This document shows, in pieces, positions 51,367 to 59,577 of a stretch of 64,000 nt of DNA. The DNA is from Pleomorphomonas carboxyditropha (lineage in GTDB: Bacteria > Pseudomonadota > Alphaproteobacteria > Rhizobiales > Pleomorphomonadaceae). The notes under the pieces were generated by a model. It saw nothing but the letters and a program-made list of their open reading frames with translations, was not told the origin of the DNA and searched no databases. A program made the position numbers and the translations under genes. The stretch is taken from the NCBI RefSeq assembly GCF_002770725.1, contig NZ_NQVN01000002.1, forward strand, positions 460,622 through 524,621, in the 5' to 3' direction. Each line of letters begins with the position of its first letter. Position 1 is the stretch's first letter.

Positions 51367-51389
51367 ACACCTCAGGTTTGCAATGTAAC

Positions 51390-51469: not shown

Positions 51470-53020
51470 ATGGCCCTTCTGATCCGAAACGGACGCATCT
51501 TCTCGAACGATGCGCCCGGTACTGAATTCGATGGCGGCGACATCTTGGTGGTCGGCGACCGCATCGCCGCCATCGGCGCCGATCTTTCGGCCGAGGCGGC
51601 GCGCCATGCCGATATCGAGGTGATCGACGCCGGGCGCTCCCTCGTCCTGCCCGGCTTCATCGACGCCCACATGCACTCGAACGAAGGCTTCGAGATGGGG
51701 CGCTACGACAACCTGCCGCTGGAGATCTGGCTGTCGGAGGTCTACCCGCCGTTCGGCGCCCCGACGCTCTCCTGGCGCGAGCACTATCTGAGGGCGATGC
51801 TGGTCGGCATCGTCTCCCTCCGGTCGGGCGTGACGTCTTTGCAGGACGACGTCATCAACATGGCCTTCACGCCCGACGCGGTGGACGCCACGGCGACCGC
51901 CTATCGCGATCTCGGCCTCAAGGGCTGGATCACCGCCTCCATGTGGGACGAGGGCTTTCTCGACAGCCTGCCGCCGTTCACCGCCGGTCTTGTAGATGCC
52001 GACCTGCGCGAGCGTCTCGGCAGGCTGACGACGCCGGGACGCGCCGAGCAGATCGCGCTTTTCCGTGAATTGCGCCGGCGCTGGCACGACAAAGACGGCA
52101 TGCGCATCATCCTCGGCCCCTGCGGACCGCAGCGCTGCTCGCCGGAACTGCTCGAAGAGGTCGGCGAACTGTCGCGCACGCTCGACCTGCCGATCCACTG
52201 CCACGTCCTGGAAACCAAGACGCAGGCGGTCACCGGCGAGACCAAGTACGGCATGACGCTGCCGGCCTTCCTCGACAAGGTCGGCTGCATGACCCACCGC
52301 CTCACCATGAACCATGCCATCTGGCTGACCGACGCCGACATGGAGATGATGGGGTCCGCCGGAGCCTCGACCACCCACAATCCGCTGGCCAACCTCAAGC
52401 TCGGCTCGGGCGTTTCGCCGATCCGCAAGCTCAAGCAGGCCGGCGTCAACGTCGCCCTCGGCTGCGACGGCGTCGCCTCGGCCGACAGCGCCGACATCTT
52501 CCAGGCGATCAAGGTGGCGGCCGGGCTGCATAAGATCGGCAGCCACGATTTCCACACCTGGGTCTCGGCCCACGAGGTCTACGACATGGCCACCCGCGCC
52601 GCCGCCCGGTCCAGCCTGATGCAGCACGAGGTCGGCTCGCTCGAAGCCGGCAAGAAGGCCGACATCATCCTGCTCGACCGCTACGATTGGGGCTTCCTGC
52701 CGCTGCACGACATCCGCAACCAGATCGCCTTCTCGGTGAATTCCGAGGCGGTCAAGACGGTGATCGCCGATGGTCGTGTCGTGATGGCCGATCGCAAGCT
52801 GACGCGCGTCGACGAGGCCGCGCTGCGCGAGGAGATCTCCGAAACGGCCGAGCGGTTCAGGCGCGACCATTGTCCGGCGATGAGCGCCGGCGCGGCGACG
52901 GTCCGGCCGGCGCTCGAAGCGATGCACTTCAAGGCGACGGCGATGAGCGTGCCGGCGGGCCACCTGCCGCTCCGCTTCCCGCCTGCCGTTGCCAAGGCGG
53001 CCGGCTACCCGGTCGATTGA
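51470..53020 (+). CDS. Amidohydrolase/deaminase (ATZ/TRZ-type, nucleobase-deaminase-like)
   Basis: A 516-residue metal-dependent hydrolase. A small beta-sandwich opens the chain (MALLIRNGRIFSNDAPGTEF). The metal site is formed by HMH at residues 67-69 (IDAHMHSNEG), PIHCHVLETKTQAVTGE near residue 240, TMNHAIWLTDADM near residue 278 and the aspartate in ALGCDGVASADSADIF near residue 325. This pattern is typical of deaminases and dechlorinases of purines, pyrimidines and triazines. The chain is somewhat longer than the usual 450-480 residues because of its C-terminus. ACGAGGAAAC precedes the ATG. It lies between two gene sets that look nucleoside-related, so a nucleobase deaminase role is plausible. 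Confidence 0.88.
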   Translation: MALLIRNGRIFSNDAPGTEFDGGDILVVGDRIAAIGADLSAEAARHADIEVIDAGRSLVLPGFIDAHMHSNEGFEMGRYDNLPLEIWLSEVYPPFGAPTLSWREHYLRAMLVGIVSLRSGVTSLQDDVINMAFTPDAVDATATAYRDLGLKGWITASMWDEGFLDSLPPFTAGLVDADLRERLGRLTTPGRAEQIALFRELRRRWHDKDGMRIILGPCGPQRCSPELLEEVGELSRTLDLPIHCHVLETKTQAVTGETKYGMTLPAFLDKVGCMTHRLTMNHAIWLTDADMEMMGSAGASTTHNPLANLKLGSGVSPIRKLKQAGVNVALGCDGVASADSADIFQAIKVAAGLHKIGSHDFHTWVSAHEVYDMATRAAARSSLMQHEVGSLEAGKKADIILLDRYDWGFLPLHDIRNQIAFSVNSEAVKTVIADGRVVMADRKLTRVDEAALREEISETAERFRRDHCPAMSAGAATVRPALEAMHFKATAMSVPAGHLPLRFPPAVAKAAGYPVD

Positions 53021-53096: not shown

Positions 53097-53690
53097 TCAG
53101 GCCCGAACGGCCAGGCCGAAGCGCACGGCCGCCGCCCGGAGGCAGTCCTCGAAGGCGGCGAGGTCTGACCAGAGACGCGCCGGCTCAACCTGCCGCCGCA
53201 CCAGGATGCCGCCCATCGTCTCGATGCCGCCGTCGAGCATCAGGTTGTCGACCATGCCGTGATCCTCGACCATCATGCCATCCGGACCGCGGGTGGCGCC
53301 GTCGGCCGCCCTGGCGATGGCGCCATGGTAATAGTCGTCCCGAAGCCGCTCGAAATAGGGGCGCACCGTGTTGGTGTAGCCATAGGCGGCCCGGCCGAGC
53401 GCGCACATGAATCCGAGCTCGTAGGCCGTGCCGATGTCGGCCGAGATGCCGCGGAACGGCGTCAGGTTGGCGACGATCACATCCGAGGCCCGCATCGCCT
53501 TCTCGTTGGCGAGGCTGATGCGGTGACCGAATTCGAAGGGCGACAACCCGGCCGGATTGAGCTCGTCCTCGGCGATGCCGTTGGGCAGGAAGCCGTAGGC
53601 GAGGGCGAGATCGTTCTTGGCGGCGATGATCGCCGCGCCGTCGGCGAGGAACACCTCCGGCCCGGCGAGATAGGCGCGCGGCCGGCTCAT
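53097..53690 (-). CDS. Nucleoside 2-deoxyribosyltransferase
   Basis: A 197-residue enzyme that exchanges the base of a 2-deoxynucleoside or hydrolyses it. The family start RAYLAGPEVFLADG at about residues 4-17 is followed by the active-site region VIVANLTPFRGISADIGTAY then ELGF (near residues 72-95), with the catalytic glutamate in AYELG. An inserted C-terminal segment with DGMMVEDHGMVDNLML near residue 140 belongs to the longer bacterial subfamily. Its start overlaps the preceding gene by 4 bases. It is the last gene of an NMT1/THI5-type transport operon, so it may release or remodel an imported pyrimidine or purine (deoxy)nucleoside. Confidence 0.9.
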   Translation of the reverse strand: MSRPRAYLAGPEVFLADGAAIIAAKNDLALAYGFLPNGIAEDELNPAGLSPFEFGHRISLANEKAMRASDVIVANLTPFRGISADIGTAYELGFMCALGRAAYGYTNTVRPYFERLRDDYYHGAIARAADGATRGPDGMMVEDHGMVDNLMLDGGIETMGGILVRRQVEPARLWSDLAAFEDCLRAAAVRFGLAVRA

Positions 53691-54271
53691 GCCAGCCTCC
53701 CGTCGGCCAGCGCCTTCAGGATCCATTGCTTGTACTTCTGGTCCTTGTCCTTGATCTCGGGAACGACCTTCGACGCCTCGGACATGAAGAACAGGTAGTC
53801 GCGGCCCATCTCCTGGCCGCGCCGGGTATGCATGTCGAGCGCCACGTCGGGGATTTCCGGCAGGGTGTCGCCGAGTTCGATCGAGCGCTTCGCCCAGTTG
53901 ACCATGTCGTCGGAGGTGCGGTCCTTCTCGCTCTTGGTCAGAACGCGGATGGCGTGGGCGGCGAACAGGAAACGATCGCCGGCCGGGCGCGGATAGCGCT
54001 TGTGCTGCTGGTAAAGCGTCTCGACGAGGATGGGCGCGTTGGGATTGCCGAGGCCGATGTCCTCCACCGCCATCACGCACAGGCGGGACCACATCATCTC
54101 CTCCATTTCCGGGCTGGTGATGAACATTTCCCAGCCGAGCAGCAGCACGTTGTCGGTCATGCCGCGCCGCGTGCATTTCTGCAGGGCGGAAATGACCTCG
54201 TCGGCGAAGAAGCCGTGCTCGGTGGTAGTGCGCTGCCAGGGATCGGGGGGCTGCTGAACCTTGACCATCAT
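53687..54271 (-). CDS. Stand-alone RarA/MgsA C-terminal-like protein
   Basis: A 194-residue protein that resembles the helical C-terminal domain of the replication-associated recombination ATPase RarA (MgsA). The clearest segment is WSRLCVMAVEDIGLGNPNAP near residue 60, which matches the RarA pattern of an arginine-leucine pair before ASEDIGLADP. The AAA+ ATPase domain is missing: no Walker A or B is present. It starts at the ATG at 54271 (AAAGGACAAC upstream; a second ATG follows directly) and overlaps the deoxyribosyltransferase gene. Its function is unknown. Because the two genes are fused translationally, it may act with that enzyme, for example as a regulatory or oligomerisation partner. 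Confidence 0.75.
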   Translation of the reverse strand: MMVKVQQPPDPWQRTTTEHGFFADEVISALQKCTRRGMTDNVLLLGWEMFITSPEMEEMMWSRLCVMAVEDIGLGNPNAPILVETLYQQHKRYPRPAGDRFLFAAHAIRVLTKSEKDRTSDDMVNWAKRSIELGDTLPEIPDVALDMHTRRGQEMGRDYLFFMSEASKVVPEIKDKDQKYKQWILKALADGRLA

Positions 54272-54376
54272 GTTGTCCTTTCACTGTCTTGATGCGGGAG
54301 GTCGAAACCGCCCGCGGCTCGATCCAGCGCCCGTTGTGTCAAAGCGGTGTCCGGATGATCTGATGCCGCGCCGGGC

Positions 54377-55138
54377 TTAAGTCCAGCGGCGGAGAACGCG
54401 GCGCTCGGCGGCGAGCGCCAGGCCGAAACAGGCCACCGAGGTGATGGTGGCGATCAGCGAGGTGGCCAGCGCCCGTTCGGTGTCGAATTCGCCGGCCGCC
54501 TTGCGGAACATGTAGCCGAGGCCGTCGGTGCCCATCAGGAACTCGGCGACGACGGCGGCGAGCACGGCCTCCGGCGCCGTCAGGCGGAAGGCCAGCATCA
54601 GGTTGGGGATCGACGACGGCAGCACGAGGCGCAGGAAGCGCTGGCGCCGCGAGCCGCCGAACACCCGGAACAGGTCGTCGCTGCCGGGCGGCAGCGCCCT
54701 GAGGCCGGCGCCGACATAGACGAAGGCCGGGAAGAAGCAGATCAGGGCGACGATGGCGATCACCGTCCGGACGTCGTAACCGAGCATTCGCGCGATGATC
54801 GGGATCAGCGTCACGACCGGGATCGACGTGAAGATCAGGCCGAGCGGCGTCAGGAGGCCGTTCAGGATGCGCGACGACCAACTGAGCACCGCCAGCCCCC
54901 CTCCCAGCGCGAAGCCGAGCAGCAGGCCGGCGAGGGCGACGGCGAAGGTGCGGCCGGCCGGCTCGGCGTAGCTCAGCGGATCGCCGGCGAAATCCTTCAG
55001 GACGGCCAGCGGCCCCGGCAGGACGATCGACGACAGGCCGGCCGCCGAGACCCAGATCTGCCAGCCGGCGACGACCAGCGCCACGGCCCAGTAGCGCCGT
55101 ACCACGTGAGAGACCGAGGCGAGGGCGGCGGAACTCAT
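54377..55138 (-). CDS. ABC permease (SsuC/TauC/ThiX-like), copy 2
   Basis: A 253-residue permease with about six spans. The EAA loop is in DDLFRVFGGSRRQRFLRLVLPSSIPN near residue 165. It belongs to the nitrate/sulfonate/pyrimidine-precursor class. It overlaps the preceding permease by 4 bases and is followed by a 105-base gap before the RarA-C-like gene. Confidence 0.9.
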   Translation of the reverse strand: MSSAALASVSHVVRRYWAVALVVAGWQIWVSAAGLSSIVLPGPLAVLKDFAGDPLSYAEPAGRTFAVALAGLLLGFALGGGLAVLSWSSRILNGLLTPLGLIFTSIPVVTLIPIIARMLGYDVRTVIAIVALICFFPAFVYVGAGLRALPPGSDDLFRVFGGSRRQRFLRLVLPSSIPNLMLAFRLTAPEAVLAAVVAEFLMGTDGLGYMFRKAAGEFDTERALATSLIATITSVACFGLALAAERRVLRRWT

Positions 55139-55887
55139 CGCATGCGCTCCTGCACCAGACGCTCGAACAGGCTGAACAGGGCGAACATAGACAGCGAGGC
55201 GACGGCGGTGATCAGCACGGCGCTCCATAACAGCGGGATCTGGAAGTTCTGCATGGCCGAGACGATCAACAGGCCAAGGCCGCGCGAGGCGCCGAACCAC
55301 TCGCCGATGATGGCGCCGATGAAGGCGATCGGCACCGACAGCTTCATCGCCGAGGCGATGGCCGGCAGGGCGGACGGCAGGTCGAGCCGCAGCGCGGTGG
55401 AAAGCCGGCTCGCGCCCAGCACGGCGAACAGGTCGCGATGGGAAGCGCCGGCCGTCGCCAGACCCGAGGTCGCCGCGACGTAGAAGATATAGCCGACGCC
55501 AAGCCCCGAGATGATCGGCGGCGTCGCGTCGGCGCTGGCCAGCACGATCAGCAGCGGCGCCAGCGCGATCGACGGGATGGCGTGGATCACCGCCACCAGC
55601 CGGTCGAGGCCGGGCCGGACCGGGGCGATCAGGTGGCTGGCGAGCGCCAGGACCAGCCCGCCGACGCCACCGCAAACGTAGCCGATGGCGACCGACGTGA
55701 AGCTGGCGGCGGCGGCCCGGCCGAACAGCGGCAGCCTGGCCGGCGTCGACAGGAAGGCGAGCACCGTGGACAGCGGCGGCCAGGTGAGGCCGGCAAGGCG
55801 ATAGGTGCCGATCACCTCCCAGGCGGCCAGAAACAGCGAGACGCCGATCAGGCCCAGCACGAAGGACTGGCTGCGGGCGGAGGTCAT
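55135..55887 (-). CDS. ABC permease (SsuC/TauC/ThiX-like), copy 1
   Basis: A 250-residue permease of the same class, with the EAA loop RDLFAVLGASRLSTALRLDLPSALPA near residue 150. Its ATG lies in the end of the ATPase gene (4-base overlap). The two permeases probably form a heterodimer. Confidence 0.9.
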   Translation of the reverse strand: MTSARSQSFVLGLIGVSLFLAAWEVIGTYRLAGLTWPPLSTVLAFLSTPARLPLFGRAAAASFTSVAIGYVCGGVGGLVLALASHLIAPVRPGLDRLVAVIHAIPSIALAPLLIVLASADATPPIISGLGVGYIFYVAATSGLATAGASHRDLFAVLGASRLSTALRLDLPSALPAIASAMKLSVPIAFIGAIIGEWFGASRGLGLLIVSAMQNFQIPLLWSAVLITAVASLSMFALFSLFERLVQERMR

Positions 55888-56663
55888 GCGTGGGCGCCCT
55901 CCGGTTCCAGCGCTTCGGTCAATTGGTCGACCAGATCGTGGAACGCCGGCTCGCGCATCACCGAGGGCGCGCGCGGGCGGGCGAAGGGAGCCGGCAGGTC
56001 GAGGATGACGCGGCCCGGCCGGCCACTCATCACCACCACGCGGTCGGCCAGGAACAGCGCTTCGTCCACCGAATGGGTGACCAGCAGCGTCGTAATGCGG
56101 TGGCGGCTCCAGATGCGCTGCAACTCGACGTTCATCTGCCGGCGCGTCACCGCGTCGAGGGCGCCGAACGGCTCGTCGAGCAGCAGCACCTCCGGCTCCA
56201 GCACCAGGGCGCGGGCGATGGACGCTCTCTGGCGCATGCCGCCCGACAGTTGCCTGGGCCGCGCCTTCTCGAAGCCGGTGAGACCGACGAGGGCGATCAG
56301 GTCCCTGACGCGGGCGCCGTCGACCGGCCGCCCGGCCAGGTGGAACGGCAGGGCGACGTTGGCTTCGATGTCGAGCCATGGCAGCAGGGCGTGATCCTGG
56401 AAGGCGACGCCGAGCCGGTGGCTTTGGCAAAGCTCGGCCGGCGCCCGGCCCTCGATGGTGACGCGCCCGGCCGTCGCCGCTTCCAGCGCCGCGACGAGGC
56501 GCAGGATGGTGCTCTTGCCGCAGCCCGACGGGCCGAGCAGCGCCACGAATTCGCCGGAGGCGATCGAGAGGTCGATATCGGTCAGCGCCGTCAGCTCCCG
56601 TCCGTCGCCGAGGCGGAAGGTCTTGCTGACGCGATCGATGCGGATGGCGGGCTTTTCGGGCAT
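55884..56663 (-). CDS. ABC transporter ATP-binding protein (SsuB/TauB/ThiZ-like)
   Basis: A 259-residue ATPase without a C-terminal TOBE domain, as usual for this class. Walker A is GPSGCGKST near residue 45, signature LSGGMRQRASIARALV near residue 138, and Walker B VLLLDEPFGALD near residue 160, with the switch histidine in LVTHSVDEAL. CAGGATTCC precedes the ATG at 56663. Confidence 0.93.
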   Translation of the reverse strand: MPEKPAIRIDRVSKTFRLGDGRELTALTDIDLSIASGEFVALLGPSGCGKSTILRLVAALEAATAGRVTIEGRAPAELCQSHRLGVAFQDHALLPWLDIEANVALPFHLAGRPVDGARVRDLIALVGLTGFEKARPRQLSGGMRQRASIARALVLEPEVLLLDEPFGALDAVTRRQMNVELQRIWSRHRITTLLVTHSVDEALFLADRVVVMSGRPGRVILDLPAPFARPRAPSVMREPAFHDLVDQLTEALEPEGAHA

Positions 56664-56686
56664 GGAATCCTGTGACCTGCGAACAC

Positions 56687-56719
56687 CCGCCGCCGACCCC
56701 GATACAGGGCCGGCGGCGG
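56687..56719 (-). terminator. Intercistronic hairpin after NMT1/THI5-like gene
   Basis: Arms CCGCCGCC (56687-56694) and GGCGGCGG (56712-56719) with a 17-base loop that can itself pair weakly. It lies in the 77-base gap between the binding-protein stop and the ATPase start and has no T run. Confidence 0.5.
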
Positions 56720-56740
56720 CCGTGCCGACGGGACGTGGTG

Positions 56741-57775
56741 TCAACTGGCGGCGAGCGCCTCTTCGAGCGGGCCGAGATCGATCAGATCCTTGGCCGGCGG
56801 CACATCCTTATGGCCCGACAGGCGGGCGACCTCGGCCATCGGGCCGTCGACCAGGGCGGGATCGAACCAGAACAGCTTGTCCGAACCGGCGGCCTTGGTC
56901 AGCGGGATCTGCAATTCGTTCTGGCGGATCTGCTGGTCGAGATCGAGCCCGAGGTCGGCGCCGAACTTGTTGACCGCCAGCTCGGCCGCCACTTTCGGAT
57001 CCTTGGCGTTTTCCTGCCAGCCCTTGATGTAGGCCTTGAAGTAGCTGACGATGGCGGCGCGGTTTTCCTTGACGAACGACTTGTGGGCCACCAGCACGCC
57101 GCCGGGCGCCTTGTAGCCGAGGCTGTCCTGCAAGGTGACGAAGAAGTCCTTGCCTTCGGTAAGCCCCATCTTCTCGAGGGTGATCGGCTGGTTGGTGGCG
57201 AAGCAGAAATAGGCGTCGCCGTCGCCGGCCAGCAGCGGCTCCGGCGAGAAGCCGGTCGGCACCATGGTGTATTCGAGCGGCAGTCCGGCGTTGCGCAGGA
57301 TGATCTCGACGATCGTCTTGTTGGCGGGCGTCTGGCCGAGAATGCGGGCGCCGACCAGGTCCTTGGGCTCGCGCACCGGCTTCTTGGCAAGCGACAGCAG
57401 GGCGGCCGGGCTGGTAGGGAAGGCCGAGGCGAGGATGACGAGATCGCTGTTCTTCCCGTAGGCGTCGATGAACGGCAGCCAGTCGCTGGCGGCGAATTGC
57501 GCCTTGCCCGATTCCAGGACCACCAGCGGATCGGGGGCGTTCGGCCCGCCCGGGCTGTAGCTGAAGTCGATCCCCTCGGCCGCGTAATAGCCTTGCTCCA
57601 GGGCGATCCAGACACCGGCGTGCTCGACATTGGGCACCCAGCCCATGGCAAGCTTGAGCGGCGTGGCGGCGAAGGCCAGCGAGGCCGGCAGCACCGTTGC
57701 CAGGCCGGCGGCCGCGGAGGCGCGCAGCAGTTGGCGGCGGCTCAACATCGGCGAAAAAATGGGATCGGCGGGCAT
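56741..57775 (-). CDS. NMT1/THI5-like substrate-binding protein, Tat-exported
   Basis: A 344-residue binding protein with a twin-arginine signal (SRRQLLRASAAAG near residue 12, cleavage near residue 36). The mature start LKLAMGWVPNVEHAGVWIAL and GYYAAEGIDFSYSPGGPN identify the NMT1/THI5 family, whose members bind hydroxymethylpyrimidine and related heterocycles. ASDWLPFIDAYGKN, FCFATNQPITLEKMG and VNKFGADLGLDLDQQI complete the fold. No thiamine-pyrophosphate riboswitch is seen in the 116-base upstream spacer. With the deoxyribosyltransferase in the operon, a pyrimidine-type base or nucleoside is a likely ligand. Confidence 0.88.
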   Translation of the reverse strand: MPADPIFSPMLSRRQLLRASAAAGLATVLPASLAFAATPLKLAMGWVPNVEHAGVWIALEQGYYAAEGIDFSYSPGGPNAPDPLVVLESGKAQFAASDWLPFIDAYGKNSDLVILASAFPTSPAALLSLAKKPVREPKDLVGARILGQTPANKTIVEIILRNAGLPLEYTMVPTGFSPEPLLAGDGDAYFCFATNQPITLEKMGLTEGKDFFVTLQDSLGYKAPGGVLVAHKSFVKENRAAIVSYFKAYIKGWQENAKDPKVAAELAVNKFGADLGLDLDQQIRQNELQIPLTKAAGSDKLFWFDPALVDGPMAEVARLSGHKDVPPAKDLIDLGPLEEALAAS

Positions 57776-57833: not shown

Positions 57834-57862
57834 TGTTACATCGGAGGCTAGCATATGTTACT
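57834..57862. promoter_or_regulatory. Direct repeat in the divergent spacer (possible RpiR operator)
   Basis: TGTTACA (57834-57840) and TGTTACT (57856-57862) are repeated 22 bases apart, about two helical turns, in the AT-rich spacer between the NMT1-like operon and the RpiR gene. Spacing and position fit an operator for the divergent regulator, but the repeat is short. Confidence 0.35.
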
Positions 57863-57891: not shown

Positions 57892-58809
57892 ATGCCGCAA
57901 TTTCAGTCAAATCCCTCGGGGCGCCTGCCGGACAGCACGATTGTCGCCCGGCGCATCGCCGAGAAATACGCTGACATGACCGGCGCCGTGCGGCGGTTCG
58001 CCGATCTGGTGAAGGCCGAGCCGCTGAAGGTGGCGCGCATGAGCATCCACGAGGCCGTGGTGGGCGCCGACGTCTCGGTCGCCACCGCCAATCGCTTCGC
58101 CCATCTCATCGGCTTTTCCGGCTATGCCGAGTTCCGCGCCGAGCTCATCCGGGGCTTCGAGAAGCTGTTCGAGCCGGTCGACGCGATGAAGCGGCACCGG
58201 GCCGAAGCGGGCAGCGCCTTCGAGGTGCTTGAAGCCTCGCTCCGGGAGGACATCGCCAACATCGAGGCGACGCTGCGGTCGCTCGATCCGGAGACCACCG
58301 AGCGGGCCGTCGAGATGATCGCCCGCGCCGAAAAGGTGTTCGTCCTCGGCTTCGAAAACGCCGCCCAGCTCGCCGGCATGCTCGCCTGCGGGCTGGAGAT
58401 GACCGGCGTGCCGACGCGCAGCCCCGAGAACGGCGGCGGCATGGTCGGCGTGGCGCGCCAGCTGTTCAAGTTCGGACCGAACGACCTTCTGATTCCCATC
58501 GCCTTCTCGCTCTACATGCGCGACACCATCATCATGACGCGCTATGCGAGGCGGGCCGGCATCCCGATCCTGGCCATCACCGATTTCCTCGATTCGCCGC
58601 TGGTGCCGCTCGCCGACCGCACGCTGTTCGTCACGGCCTTTCATTCCATGCACCCGCCCTCCGACACGGCGATCCTGGCGCTCATCGAGGCCCTGATCGC
58701 CGCCGTGGCGCGTCAGCGCCCCGGCGCGCCCGAGGTGGCGGAGAAATTCGCGAGCTTCGCCTATCCCTGGATGCGCAGCACCGGTCCGGACTGGTCGCCG
58801 GAGGAATAG
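57892..58809 (+). CDS. MurR/RpiR-family transcriptional regulator
   Basis: A 305-residue regulator. The helix-turn-helix domain spans about residues 14-90 (SIHEAVVGADVSVATANRFA then HLIGFSGYAEFRAE), and a SIS domain follows at about residues 135-275 (KVFVLGFENAAQLAGMLACG, LLIPIAFSLYMRDTIIMTRY). AAAAGGCAAG precedes the ATG at 57892. It is divergent from the NMT1/THI5-like operon and most likely controls it, perhaps sensing a (deoxy)ribose phosphate. It ends 12 bases from the convergent phosphoesterase gene. Confidence 0.9.
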   Translation: MPQFQSNPSGRLPDSTIVARRIAEKYADMTGAVRRFADLVKAEPLKVARMSIHEAVVGADVSVATANRFAHLIGFSGYAEFRAELIRGFEKLFEPVDAMKRHRAEAGSAFEVLEASLREDIANIEATLRSLDPETTERAVEMIARAEKVFVLGFENAAQLAGMLACGLEMTGVPTRSPENGGGMVGVARQLFKFGPNDLLIPIAFSLYMRDTIIMTRYARRAGIPILAITDFLDSPLVPLADRTLFVTAFHSMHPPSDTAILALIEALIAAVARQRPGAPEVAEKFASFAYPWMRSTGPDWSPEE

Positions 58810-58821
58810 CGGCCGGTCTCG

Positions 58822-59577
58822 TCAGGCTCGACCGATTTCCTGGGCGTGCACGACGATGTCCGGCCCATCCACCAGGATCACGTTGTAGGCCGGCGTATCG
58901 AAGCCGACGGCGAAGTCCTTGGCGCCGAACAGCGGCGCGGTCTGGTGGTTGGTGCCGCGTCCGGTGCTGAAGGCGATGCCGTTCCAGGTGCCCGAGCACA
59001 GGCGGTGCACATGGCCGGCAAAGATGTGGCGGACATTGCCGTGGCGGCGGAGAACGTCGGCAAAGGCCCGGGGATCGGCGAGCTTCACGCCGTCGAGCGG
59101 CGGCATGCCGATGTCGAACGGCGGATGGTGCATGAAGACCAGCGCCGAAGCCGGCGCTTCGGCAAGACGGTTATCGAGCCAGGCGAGACGATGTTCGCAG
59201 AGCCGCCCTGCAACGGCACCTTCATCGAGCGTGTCGAGGAACAAAAGCCGGTGGTTGCCGACATCCGTTGCCGATTGGACGAAGCCGTCTTCGGCCGGTG
59301 CATCCGGGAATACGGCGGAGAAAGCGGCGCGGCCGTCATGGTTGCCGAGCAGCAGGCGGGAGGGCGGAACCAGCGGCCCGATCGTCTCGGCGAGCAACCG
59401 GTAGGAAGCGGCCGAGCCGTCGTCGGAGAGATCGCCGGTGATCGCCACCAGATCGGCATCGGCGTGGTAGCGGTTGATGTCGGCGATTGCCGCTTCAAGG
59501 TTTGCCGCGGGATCGAGCCCGCAGACCAGTTCGCCACGCCGGCGCAGATGCGGATCGGTGACCTGGATCAGTTTCAC
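58822..59577 (-). CDS. Calcineurin-like phosphoesterase (CpdA-like)
   Basis: A 251-residue metallophosphoesterase. All family motifs are present in order: VTDPHL (residues 6-11), GDLSDDG near residue 48, LLGNHDGR near residue 76, a MHHPPF segment near residue 148 and IFAGHVHRL near residue 185. CpdA-type enzymes hydrolyse cyclic AMP, and related ones hydrolyse phosphodiesters such as glycerophosphodiesters. It is the last gene of a binding protein, permeases, LacI, phosphatase operon, so hydrolysis of an imported phosphodiester or sugar phosphate is a reasonable guess. It ends close to the convergent RpiR gene. Confidence 0.88.
   Translation of the reverse strand: MKLIQVTDPHLRRRGELVCGLDPAANLEAAIADINRYHADADLVAITGDLSDDGSAASYRLLAETIGPLVPPSRLLLGNHDGRAAFSAVFPDAPAEDGFVQSATDVGNHRLLFLDTLDEGAVAGRLCEHRLAWLDNRLAEAPASALVFMHHPPFDIGMPPLDGVKLADPRAFADVLRRHGNVRHIFAGHVHRLCSGTWNGIAFSTGRGTNHQTAPLFGAKDFAVGFDTPAYNVILVDGPDIVVHAQEIGRA

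Follow-up and report, generated by a model that had tools for sequence, protein, structure and literature searches.

The C-terminal domain of the RarA/MgsA (WRNIP1 family) proteins is the part that forms their tetramer. RarA is described as functioning as a tetramer, and the molecular function of its family is termed obscure (PMC8735627). Among the nucleoside 2-deoxyribosyltransferases (NDTs), LdNDT uses Glu98 and the C-terminal Tyr157 (PMC9570332). Relatives of both proteins are encoded side by side in the window analyzed here, the whole 64,000-nt stretch of Pleomorphomonas carboxyditropha contig NZ_NQVN01000002.1 from position 460,622 to 524,621. A six-gene operon on the minus strand (53097-57775) specifies an NMT1/THI5-type ATP-binding cassette (ABC) importer, an NDT-like enzyme, and a protein that has the RarA C-terminal fold but stands alone, referred to below as the orphan. 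The orphan is recurrently linked to importers and to non-homologous enzymes of N-glycosidic bonds, and the arrangement of a divergent RpiR gene and GTAACA half-sites is conserved. No report of a stand-alone RarA C-terminal (RarA-C) family was found in the literature searched, at the level of search results, and this family is the interesting part of the locus.

An importer operon with a stand-alone RarA-C protein

PF12002 was the only Pfam family matched by the orphan at E ≤ 0.1, with 33.4 bits against a cut-off of 27. Relatives were collected in one peptide-pattern scan of genome contigs with the window orphan, which gave 51 loci, several of them on short contigs. Alignment A1 contains the window protein and 42 of these; it leaves out near-copies (L033, L035, L036, L040, L043, L048, and L051), one sequence with stops in its translation (L082), and one partial sequence (L083). 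All 43 rows matched PF12002 at E ≤ 1 and none contains a Walker A motif, so the orphans have the C-terminal helical domain of RarA/MgsA, by family and by fold match, and lack its AAA+ core. An AlphaFold2 model built from the 43 sequences (mean predicted local distance difference test score, 93.1) matched RarA structures with Z scores of 13.2-15.9, the best being 2r9g (Z 15.9, 2.4 Å over 122 residues), 8g28 (Z 15.4), and 3pvs (Z 15.0). Clamp-loader lids ranked next at far lower scores (Z 7-9), and the fold search returned nothing notable beyond these two groups, a result with no excluding force. The genome encodes its own full RarA in a separate gene (438 aa; PF12002, 222 bits; AAA+ core with Walker A), and the orphan is therefore not the RarA of this cell.

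Twenty-two of the 43 orphan rows, together with 3 rows from a divergent subfamily, were compared residue by residue with 29 RarA rows from a survey of the class. K32, R36, R63, E70, D71, and K116 are common to the orphan and RarA, whereas the fixed residues specific to orphans include D10, R35, R118, D142, H148, and R157. A D-x-H-T-x-x-G motif is present in 43/43 orphans and in 0/29 RarA rows. Over the 43 rows, which come from Alphaproteobacteria, Chloroflexota, and one metagenome-assembled genome labeled Bacteroidetes, 54 columns are invariant and 23 of these are charged or His, which argues for a functional site in the orphan.

The coordinates and strand of all six genes were verified (Table 1). 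They agree with Pfam in supporting the first-pass annotation of a six-gene importer operon whose last two products are RarA-C-like and of the PF05014 family; the genes are six separate ones, and the fusion of importer, transferase, and RarA-C announced in the title of that annotation does not exist. Its description of the genes as one coupled operon holds in part: judged from the coordinates, three of the five junctions overlap by 4 nt (ATPase/permease 1, permease 1/permease 2, and RarA-C/NDT), but gaps of 77 nt and 105 nt separate the binding protein from the ATPase and permease 2 from RarA-C, respectively. The importer is complete for the NMT1/THI5 type, with binding protein, ATPase, and permeases all recognized by Pfam; many NCBIfam models of importer ATPases match the ATPase, all of them below their cut-offs. 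The divergent RpiR regulator was also correctly called, with both its HTH_6 and SIS domains matched by Pfam, and 15/17 loci with an NDT gene nearby also have an RpiR gene.

The nearest sequence relatives of the NDT-like enzyme in the PDB, 6qai and 2a0k, are both 2-deoxyribosyltransferases. Y7, D85, E91, and N149 are invariant in 17/17 aligned NDT-like rows, and E91 lies in all 17 within a G-T-x-[FY]-E-[LV]-G segment. From this motif and the alignments with 6qai and 2a0k, E91 is the predicted equivalent of LdNDT Glu98, so the catalytic glutamate appears to be in place.

GTAACA occurs twice in the window, at 57834 and 57856, and both copies lie between the RpiR and binding-protein genes. Loci in which RpiR, an NMT1 importer, RarA-C, and NDT occur together were designated type A; the hexamer is present in the corresponding interval of 14/15 related type-A loci, L042 being the one without an exact copy, and it occurs 7 times altogether elsewhere in those 15 loci (8.6-18.4 kb each). 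In the divergent subfamily (L108-L110), the vicinity of the RpiR genes contains no GTAACA, and the same is true of the region upstream of the orphan in the Bacillota/Fusobacteriota loci tested (L153, L155, and L159); L113 has one copy. A gapped operator pattern whose spacing did not fit the half-sites gave 0 matches. The distribution of GTAACA supports a conserved operator of type A, at which RpiR would bind and respond to its predicted ligand.

Table 1. Features of the operon and its surroundings (window positions)
Feature	Position	Strand	Match or remark
TRZ/ATZ-type amidohydrolase, convergent, outside the operon; possible deaminase partner	51470..53020	+	PF01979 9.3e-47
NDT-like N-glycosidase/deoxyribosyltransferase family enzyme, 197 aa	53097..53690	-	PF05014 9.2e-25
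Orphan RarA/MgsA C-terminal-like protein, 194 aa, without AAA+ core	53687..54271	-	PF12002 5.2e-8
ABC permease 2	54377..55138	-	PF00528 5.4e-23
ABC permease 1	55135..55887	-	PF00528 8.5e-20
ABC ATPase	55884..56663	-	PF00005 2.3e-32
NMT1/THI5-type substrate-binding protein with Tat signal	56741..57775	-	PF09084 3e-29, PF10518 3.7e-5
Two GTAACA half-sites, start-to-start 22 bp, RpiR/binding-protein intergenic region	57834..57861	-	likely operator
RpiR-family regulator, divergent	57892..58809	+	HTH_6 5.7e-11, SIS 2.3e-7

The convergent amidohydrolase gene is kept in one congener at 92% (L114). It was absent by tblastn from all four loci L033-L036, and the amidohydrolase is not supported as a conserved operon member on this count (0/4), though it is present in L114. 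Amidohydrolases of its superfamily recur in related loci. TGTAAC at 51384, one of three copies in the window, lies 86 nt upstream of the start of this gene, a weak hint that it might share the regulator. On the other side of the operon, a gene for an SpdA-like cyclic-nucleotide phosphodiesterase (58822-59577; NF050112, 252 bits, below the cut-off of 400) ends adjoining the RpiR gene.

Recurrence of the orphan beside changing partners

Type A accounts for 15/51 loci, so the combination seen in the window is not a one-off. In one more locus, L038, RarA-C and NDT are accompanied by importer genes of other kinds. A second arrangement, type B, contains a BMP/PnrA nucleoside importer, an inosine-uridine hydrolase-type gene, and a TRZ/ATZ amidohydrolase, to which Devosia-like genomes add LacI, GATase1-like, adenine-deaminase-like, cytidine-deaminase-like, creatininase-like, and ribokinase genes. 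The type-B families were named from representatives in one locus, L055 (BMP PF02608, 7.9e-60; IU_nuc_hydro, 8.8e-73; ribokinase, 9e-95), where the matches of the adenine-deaminase-like and cytidine-deaminase-like genes fell below curated cut-offs. In many Chloroflexota loci, the orphan follows the two permeases. The type-A locus L113 also has, beyond RpiR, a nucleoside-hydrolase-like gene (35%) and the start of an apparent guanine deaminase, the latter named by eye only.

Across the 51 loci, an NDT gene (17) or a nucleoside hydrolase gene (23) lies within ~9.5 kb of the orphan in 39, with L064 having both. The count rises to 41 if NMT1 or BMP importers are included, and 46 have at least one of ten gene types. 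Because short contigs are among these loci, some misses are contig-end truncations. As a yardstick, 21 relatives (~92 Mb) contain 54 hydrolase genes and 69 BMP genes, which would place ~2.5% of positions within 9.5 kb of one; this is rough arithmetic that takes no account of clustering or common descent. Genes in high-GC loci were called by a simple GC-frame rule that made some errors.

A strict tie between the orphan and NMT1 importers was considered and rejected; importer kinds vary among loci. The NMT1 importer is not essential, since this RarA-C protein also occurs alongside BMP nucleoside importers and other carriers. The refuting condition named in the first-pass annotation, that the last two genes be unlinked to such transporters elsewhere, applies to the NDT gene and only partly to RarA-C. 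RarA-C is usually near importers, of several kinds; NDT relatives, found in 42/297 genomes sampled from the order, are mostly not next to the orphan, with 6/45 matched places adjacent to it.

The orphan is itself rare and patchy. It was present in 23/397 genomes of the order (24 places, the divergent subfamily counted), in 2/301 genomes of the phylum around a Chloroflexota genome, that central genome included, and in 1/299 genomes sampled from the phylum of the window, the one being the window's own genome. The closest orphans (94-97% identity) belong to three Pleomorphomonas records and one unplaced metagenome-assembled genome (MAG) (L033-L036). One MAG labeled Bacteroidetes (L081) carries an orphan nearly identical to that of Chloroflexota L072, probably through a binning error. 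Two contigs of a single Rhizobiales MAG, Loclat_bin-01400 (L064 and L083), each carry an orphan, one of them partial, beside ribokinase-like genes. On a tree of orphans, with context labels set by hand, the type-A label changes at least 3 times and type B at least 4 times, which indicates that partner swaps happened more than once. The root and the split between orphans and RarA are unsure on this tree, owing to long branches, 3/14 RarA rows that stand apart, and one phage row that joins RarA.

Deeper, plasmid, and phage relatives

In L108-L110, the divergent subfamily (~37% identity) is embedded in a different NMT1-type importer operon that has an RpiR gene; L111 has a copy without such neighbors. 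A deep Chloroflexota copy (L151) lies just downstream, on the same strand, of an ADP-ribosylglycohydrolase (ARH) gene (PF03747, 3.9e-70), a single case. Plasmid copies with 46-51% identity were found in records from Enterococcus (12), Cetobacterium (2), and Subdoligranulum (1). The gene order divergent RpiR-type regulator, orphan, and phosphotransferase system (PTS) IIC component (PTS-IIC; PF02378, 4e-43) was seen in the 4 Enterococcus records examined of the 12 and in both Cetobacterium records, the latter with an amidohydrolase beyond the RpiR-type gene. In Subdoligranulum and on a faecal contig of 4.8 kb, importer genes of the sugar-ABC type, some of them named by eye, precede the orphan. 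On plasmid 3 of Enterococcus faecium DO (L154:9278-13717), the RpiR-type gene matches in two pieces and an IS110 transposase gene lies between the orphan and PTS-IIC; the orphan/PTS-IIC arrangement is uninterrupted in E. raffinosus. A divergent orphan (31-33% identity) on a Bradyrhizobium barranii plasmid (L156:8091-10543) is encoded two genes from a ThsB-type TIR protein (PF08937, 1.9e-19) and near phage-like genes, possibly a defense setting.

Viral contigs were scanned with a pattern from alignment A2, giving 207 relatives, of which 80 were kept and 28 of these used for open reading frame (ORF) lengths and motif counts. The 28 orphans are 189-252 aa long and lack Walker A; HT and RRG motifs each occur in 24/28, counts that are biased because the search patterns themselves contain HT and RRG. 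Identity of viral orphans is ~31-42% in the best segments, and six viral and four other orphans match PHROG 33349 (described as ATPase) and 16866. In 85 viral loci pooled from overlapping searches, where the same contig is sometimes repeated, the orphan ORF was recovered in 70, a glycosyltransferase-like gene was present in 62 (48 within 3 kb of the orphan), and a ParB-like gene was present in 60 (46 within 3 kb). Phage examples matched the TET-associated glycosyltransferase (TAGT) family PF20691 at 8.6e-16 and 1e-12, and at 8.6e-7 in a second cluster, and ParB_N at 1e-8 and 1.6e-8; one member of the ParB cluster (L242) and the glycosyltransferase of Microbacterium phage Phrancesco had no Pfam match. 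Phage clusters of the TAGT/ParB type modify DNA bases. NDT, nucleoside hydrolase, ARH, and TIR genes were not found near the phage orphans by tblastn of the 85 loci with the queries used. Genes that follow the cluster in viral loci L168-L247 (e.g., L187:4544-6624) resemble terminases by eye.

Members of the orphan family are annotated as hypothetical proteins on plasmids and as AAA-ATPases in phages. Arthrobacter phage Kitkat gp80 (L163:3968-4687; 239 aa) bears the name AAA-ATPase, which looks wrong given that PF12002 is its sole Pfam match, and Microbacterium phage Phrancesco gp87 (L253:3948-4568; 621 nt) is annotated in the same way. The "RarA" of Bacillus phage SP-15 was rejected as an orphan; its gene is 1290 nt long.

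Possible roles and relation to known systems

On balance, the operon probably serves the uptake and cleavage of a (deoxy)nucleoside-like N-glycoside, with the orphan as a catabolic component and not a repair factor. The Tat-exported NMT1-type protein would capture the solute and the ABC transporter would import it, after which the NDT-like enzyme would cleave the N-glycosidic bond via its conserved glutamate, either by hydrolysis or by exchange with another base. Amidohydrolase-type deaminases would process the freed base, a step perhaps taken here by the product of the convergent gene, and RpiR would leave the GTAACA sites as the sugar or sugar-phosphate product builds up. In the first-pass annotation, RpiR would sense a released sugar phosphate. 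The operon contains no kinase, and cleavage of the NDT type would release an unphosphorylated sugar except from a nucleotide substrate or with the help of a kinase. The orphan itself would be a soluble component acting on the imported glycoside or on the freed sugar side, as an enzyme in its own right or as an oligomeric ligand-binding partner of the glycosidase. The chief argument for a catabolic role is that the orphan stays constant as its importers and glycosidases are exchanged. The proposal in the first-pass annotation that a base- or nucleoside-like compound is taken up and cleaved fits these wider contexts; the observation made there is confirmed and its interpretation partly supported.

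Several results weigh against this assignment. Twelve of the 51 loci have no NDT or nucleoside hydrolase in reach, and in five (L044, L052, L054, L057, and L073) no gene of the ten types was found; the 51 are, moreover, not independent, many being from Devosia. In the order survey, 7/24 places (L093-L098 and L107) lack a partner within 3.5 kb, and one of these also lacks one within 18 kb (L112). Phage orphans of the same fold occupy other gene clusters without NDT or nucleoside hydrolase, and the lack of hits for those enzymes in the 85 phage loci with the queries used speaks against a shared partner enzyme. In the Bacillota/Fusobacteriota loci, the orphan has PTS-IIC or sugar-ABC importers as neighbors and the queries used detected no glycosidase, so the common substrate may be a sugar. 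The NDT-like protein of the window has Asn at position 75 where 6qai and 2a0k align Asp, and it lacks a C-terminal Tyr like LdNDT Tyr157, as judged on the window protein, most other rows ending at the matched stretch. With the glutamate motif present and the C-terminal Tyr absent, the enzyme is predicted to be as likely a hydrolase as a transferase.

A serious rival, given the PTS and sugar-ABC settings, is that the common substrate is a sugar or glycoside and not a nucleoside, so that the orphan handles a pentose, another sugar, or a sugar phosphate that is brought in by whichever carrier is present or set free by the glycosidase. We regard this as possible, if tentative. It would account for the PTS-IIC genes beside the Enterococcus and Cetobacterium orphans, the sugar-ABC-type importers in Subdoligranulum and the faecal contig, the RpiR and LacI regulators, the ribokinase of type B, and an SMP-30/gluconolactonase gene in L066. 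The base deaminases among type-A and type-B neighbors point instead to a whole nucleoside, and type A has no kinase.

A scaffolding role, in which the RarA tetramerization fold holds the glycosidase or importer in an oligomer and does no chemistry of its own, appears unlikely. The orphan model does match RarA C-terminal fragments, RarA functions as a tetramer (PMC8735627), and the orphan gene overlaps the NDT gene by 4 nt. A fixed interface would, however, be hard to keep with partners as non-homologous as NDT, nucleoside hydrolase, ARH, and PTS-IIC, and 23 charged or His invariant columns are more than a scaffold would seem to need.

Uptake of a thiamine precursor (hydroxymethyl- or formylaminopyrimidine), in the manner of ThiXYZ and with the PF05014 enzyme acting on a pyrimidine conjugate, is improbable and less likely than uptake of a nucleoside-like compound. 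It draws on the membership of the binding protein in PF09084, the NMT1/THI5 family, and on its best solved relative, the N-formyl-4-amino-5-aminomethyl-2-methylpyrimidine (FAMP) binding protein 3ix1 (3e-16). The earlier remark that thiamine genes and a thiamine pyrophosphate (TPP) riboswitch are missing is supported for what was scanned: the whole window gave no Rfam match at the gathering threshold, hence no TPP riboswitch at that threshold, and no thiamine gene was assigned among the nine proteins to which the search was confined. ThiQ models match the ATPase far below their cut-off, and in other loci this RarA-C protein accompanies BMP nucleoside importers and nucleoside hydrolases. A further reading, in which the orphan is a DNA-repair protein that has degraded or moonlights and lies in metabolic operons by chance, is very doubtful. 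Sequence and fold do place the orphan with the RarA C-terminal domain, but a full RarA is encoded by another gene of the genome, the orphan's own conserved residues are absent from the 29 RarA rows, and the linkage is seen repeatedly, with changing partners, in two phyla.

The nucleoside-type catabolic role can be extended, as a tentative proposal, to the family: stand-alone RarA-C proteins may be unrecognized enzymes, or obligate partners of enzymes, that act on glycosylated nucleosides or on the sugar side of N-glycosides, in uptake operons and in phages beside TAGT. If this is true, the RarA tail would be either the descendant or the ancestor of a small-molecule-binding domain. It is unexpected that a domain of a repair protein should be found without its ATPase and retained, in more than one phylum, beside unrelated importers and unrelated enzymes of N-glycosidic bonds. 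The orphan is not expected to act in DNA repair; should it prove to be an enzyme or a ligand-binding protein, a family annotated as hypothetical or as AAA-ATPase would acquire a function, and the RarA tail could be viewed from a new angle.

The locus can be compared with its closest known systems. RarA/MgsA shares with the orphan the C-terminal fold and several residues, but has an AAA+ ATPase core, whereas the orphan stands alone at 194 aa with fixed residues of its own. The PF05014 nucleoside 2-deoxyribosyltransferases, including those of trypanosomatids, share the Pfam match and glutamate motif of the window enzyme, which differs by Asn 75 and the lack of a C-terminal Tyr. ThiXYZ-type importers of hydroxymethylpyrimidine or FAMP (ThiY) have the same NMT1/THI5-type binding protein, ATPase, and permeases; in contrast, the window has no TPP riboswitch, and the neighbors in related loci look catabolic. 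The BMP/PnrA nucleoside ABC importer with its nucleoside hydrolase is paired with the same orphan in type-B loci, whereas the importer of the window operon belongs to a different class and its glycosidase to an unrelated family. The phage TAGT and ParB-like clusters adjoin orphans of the same fold, but in a phage setting with no importer, unlike the window operon. The importer and glycosidase are of known kinds, and the operon combines known parts in a new way.

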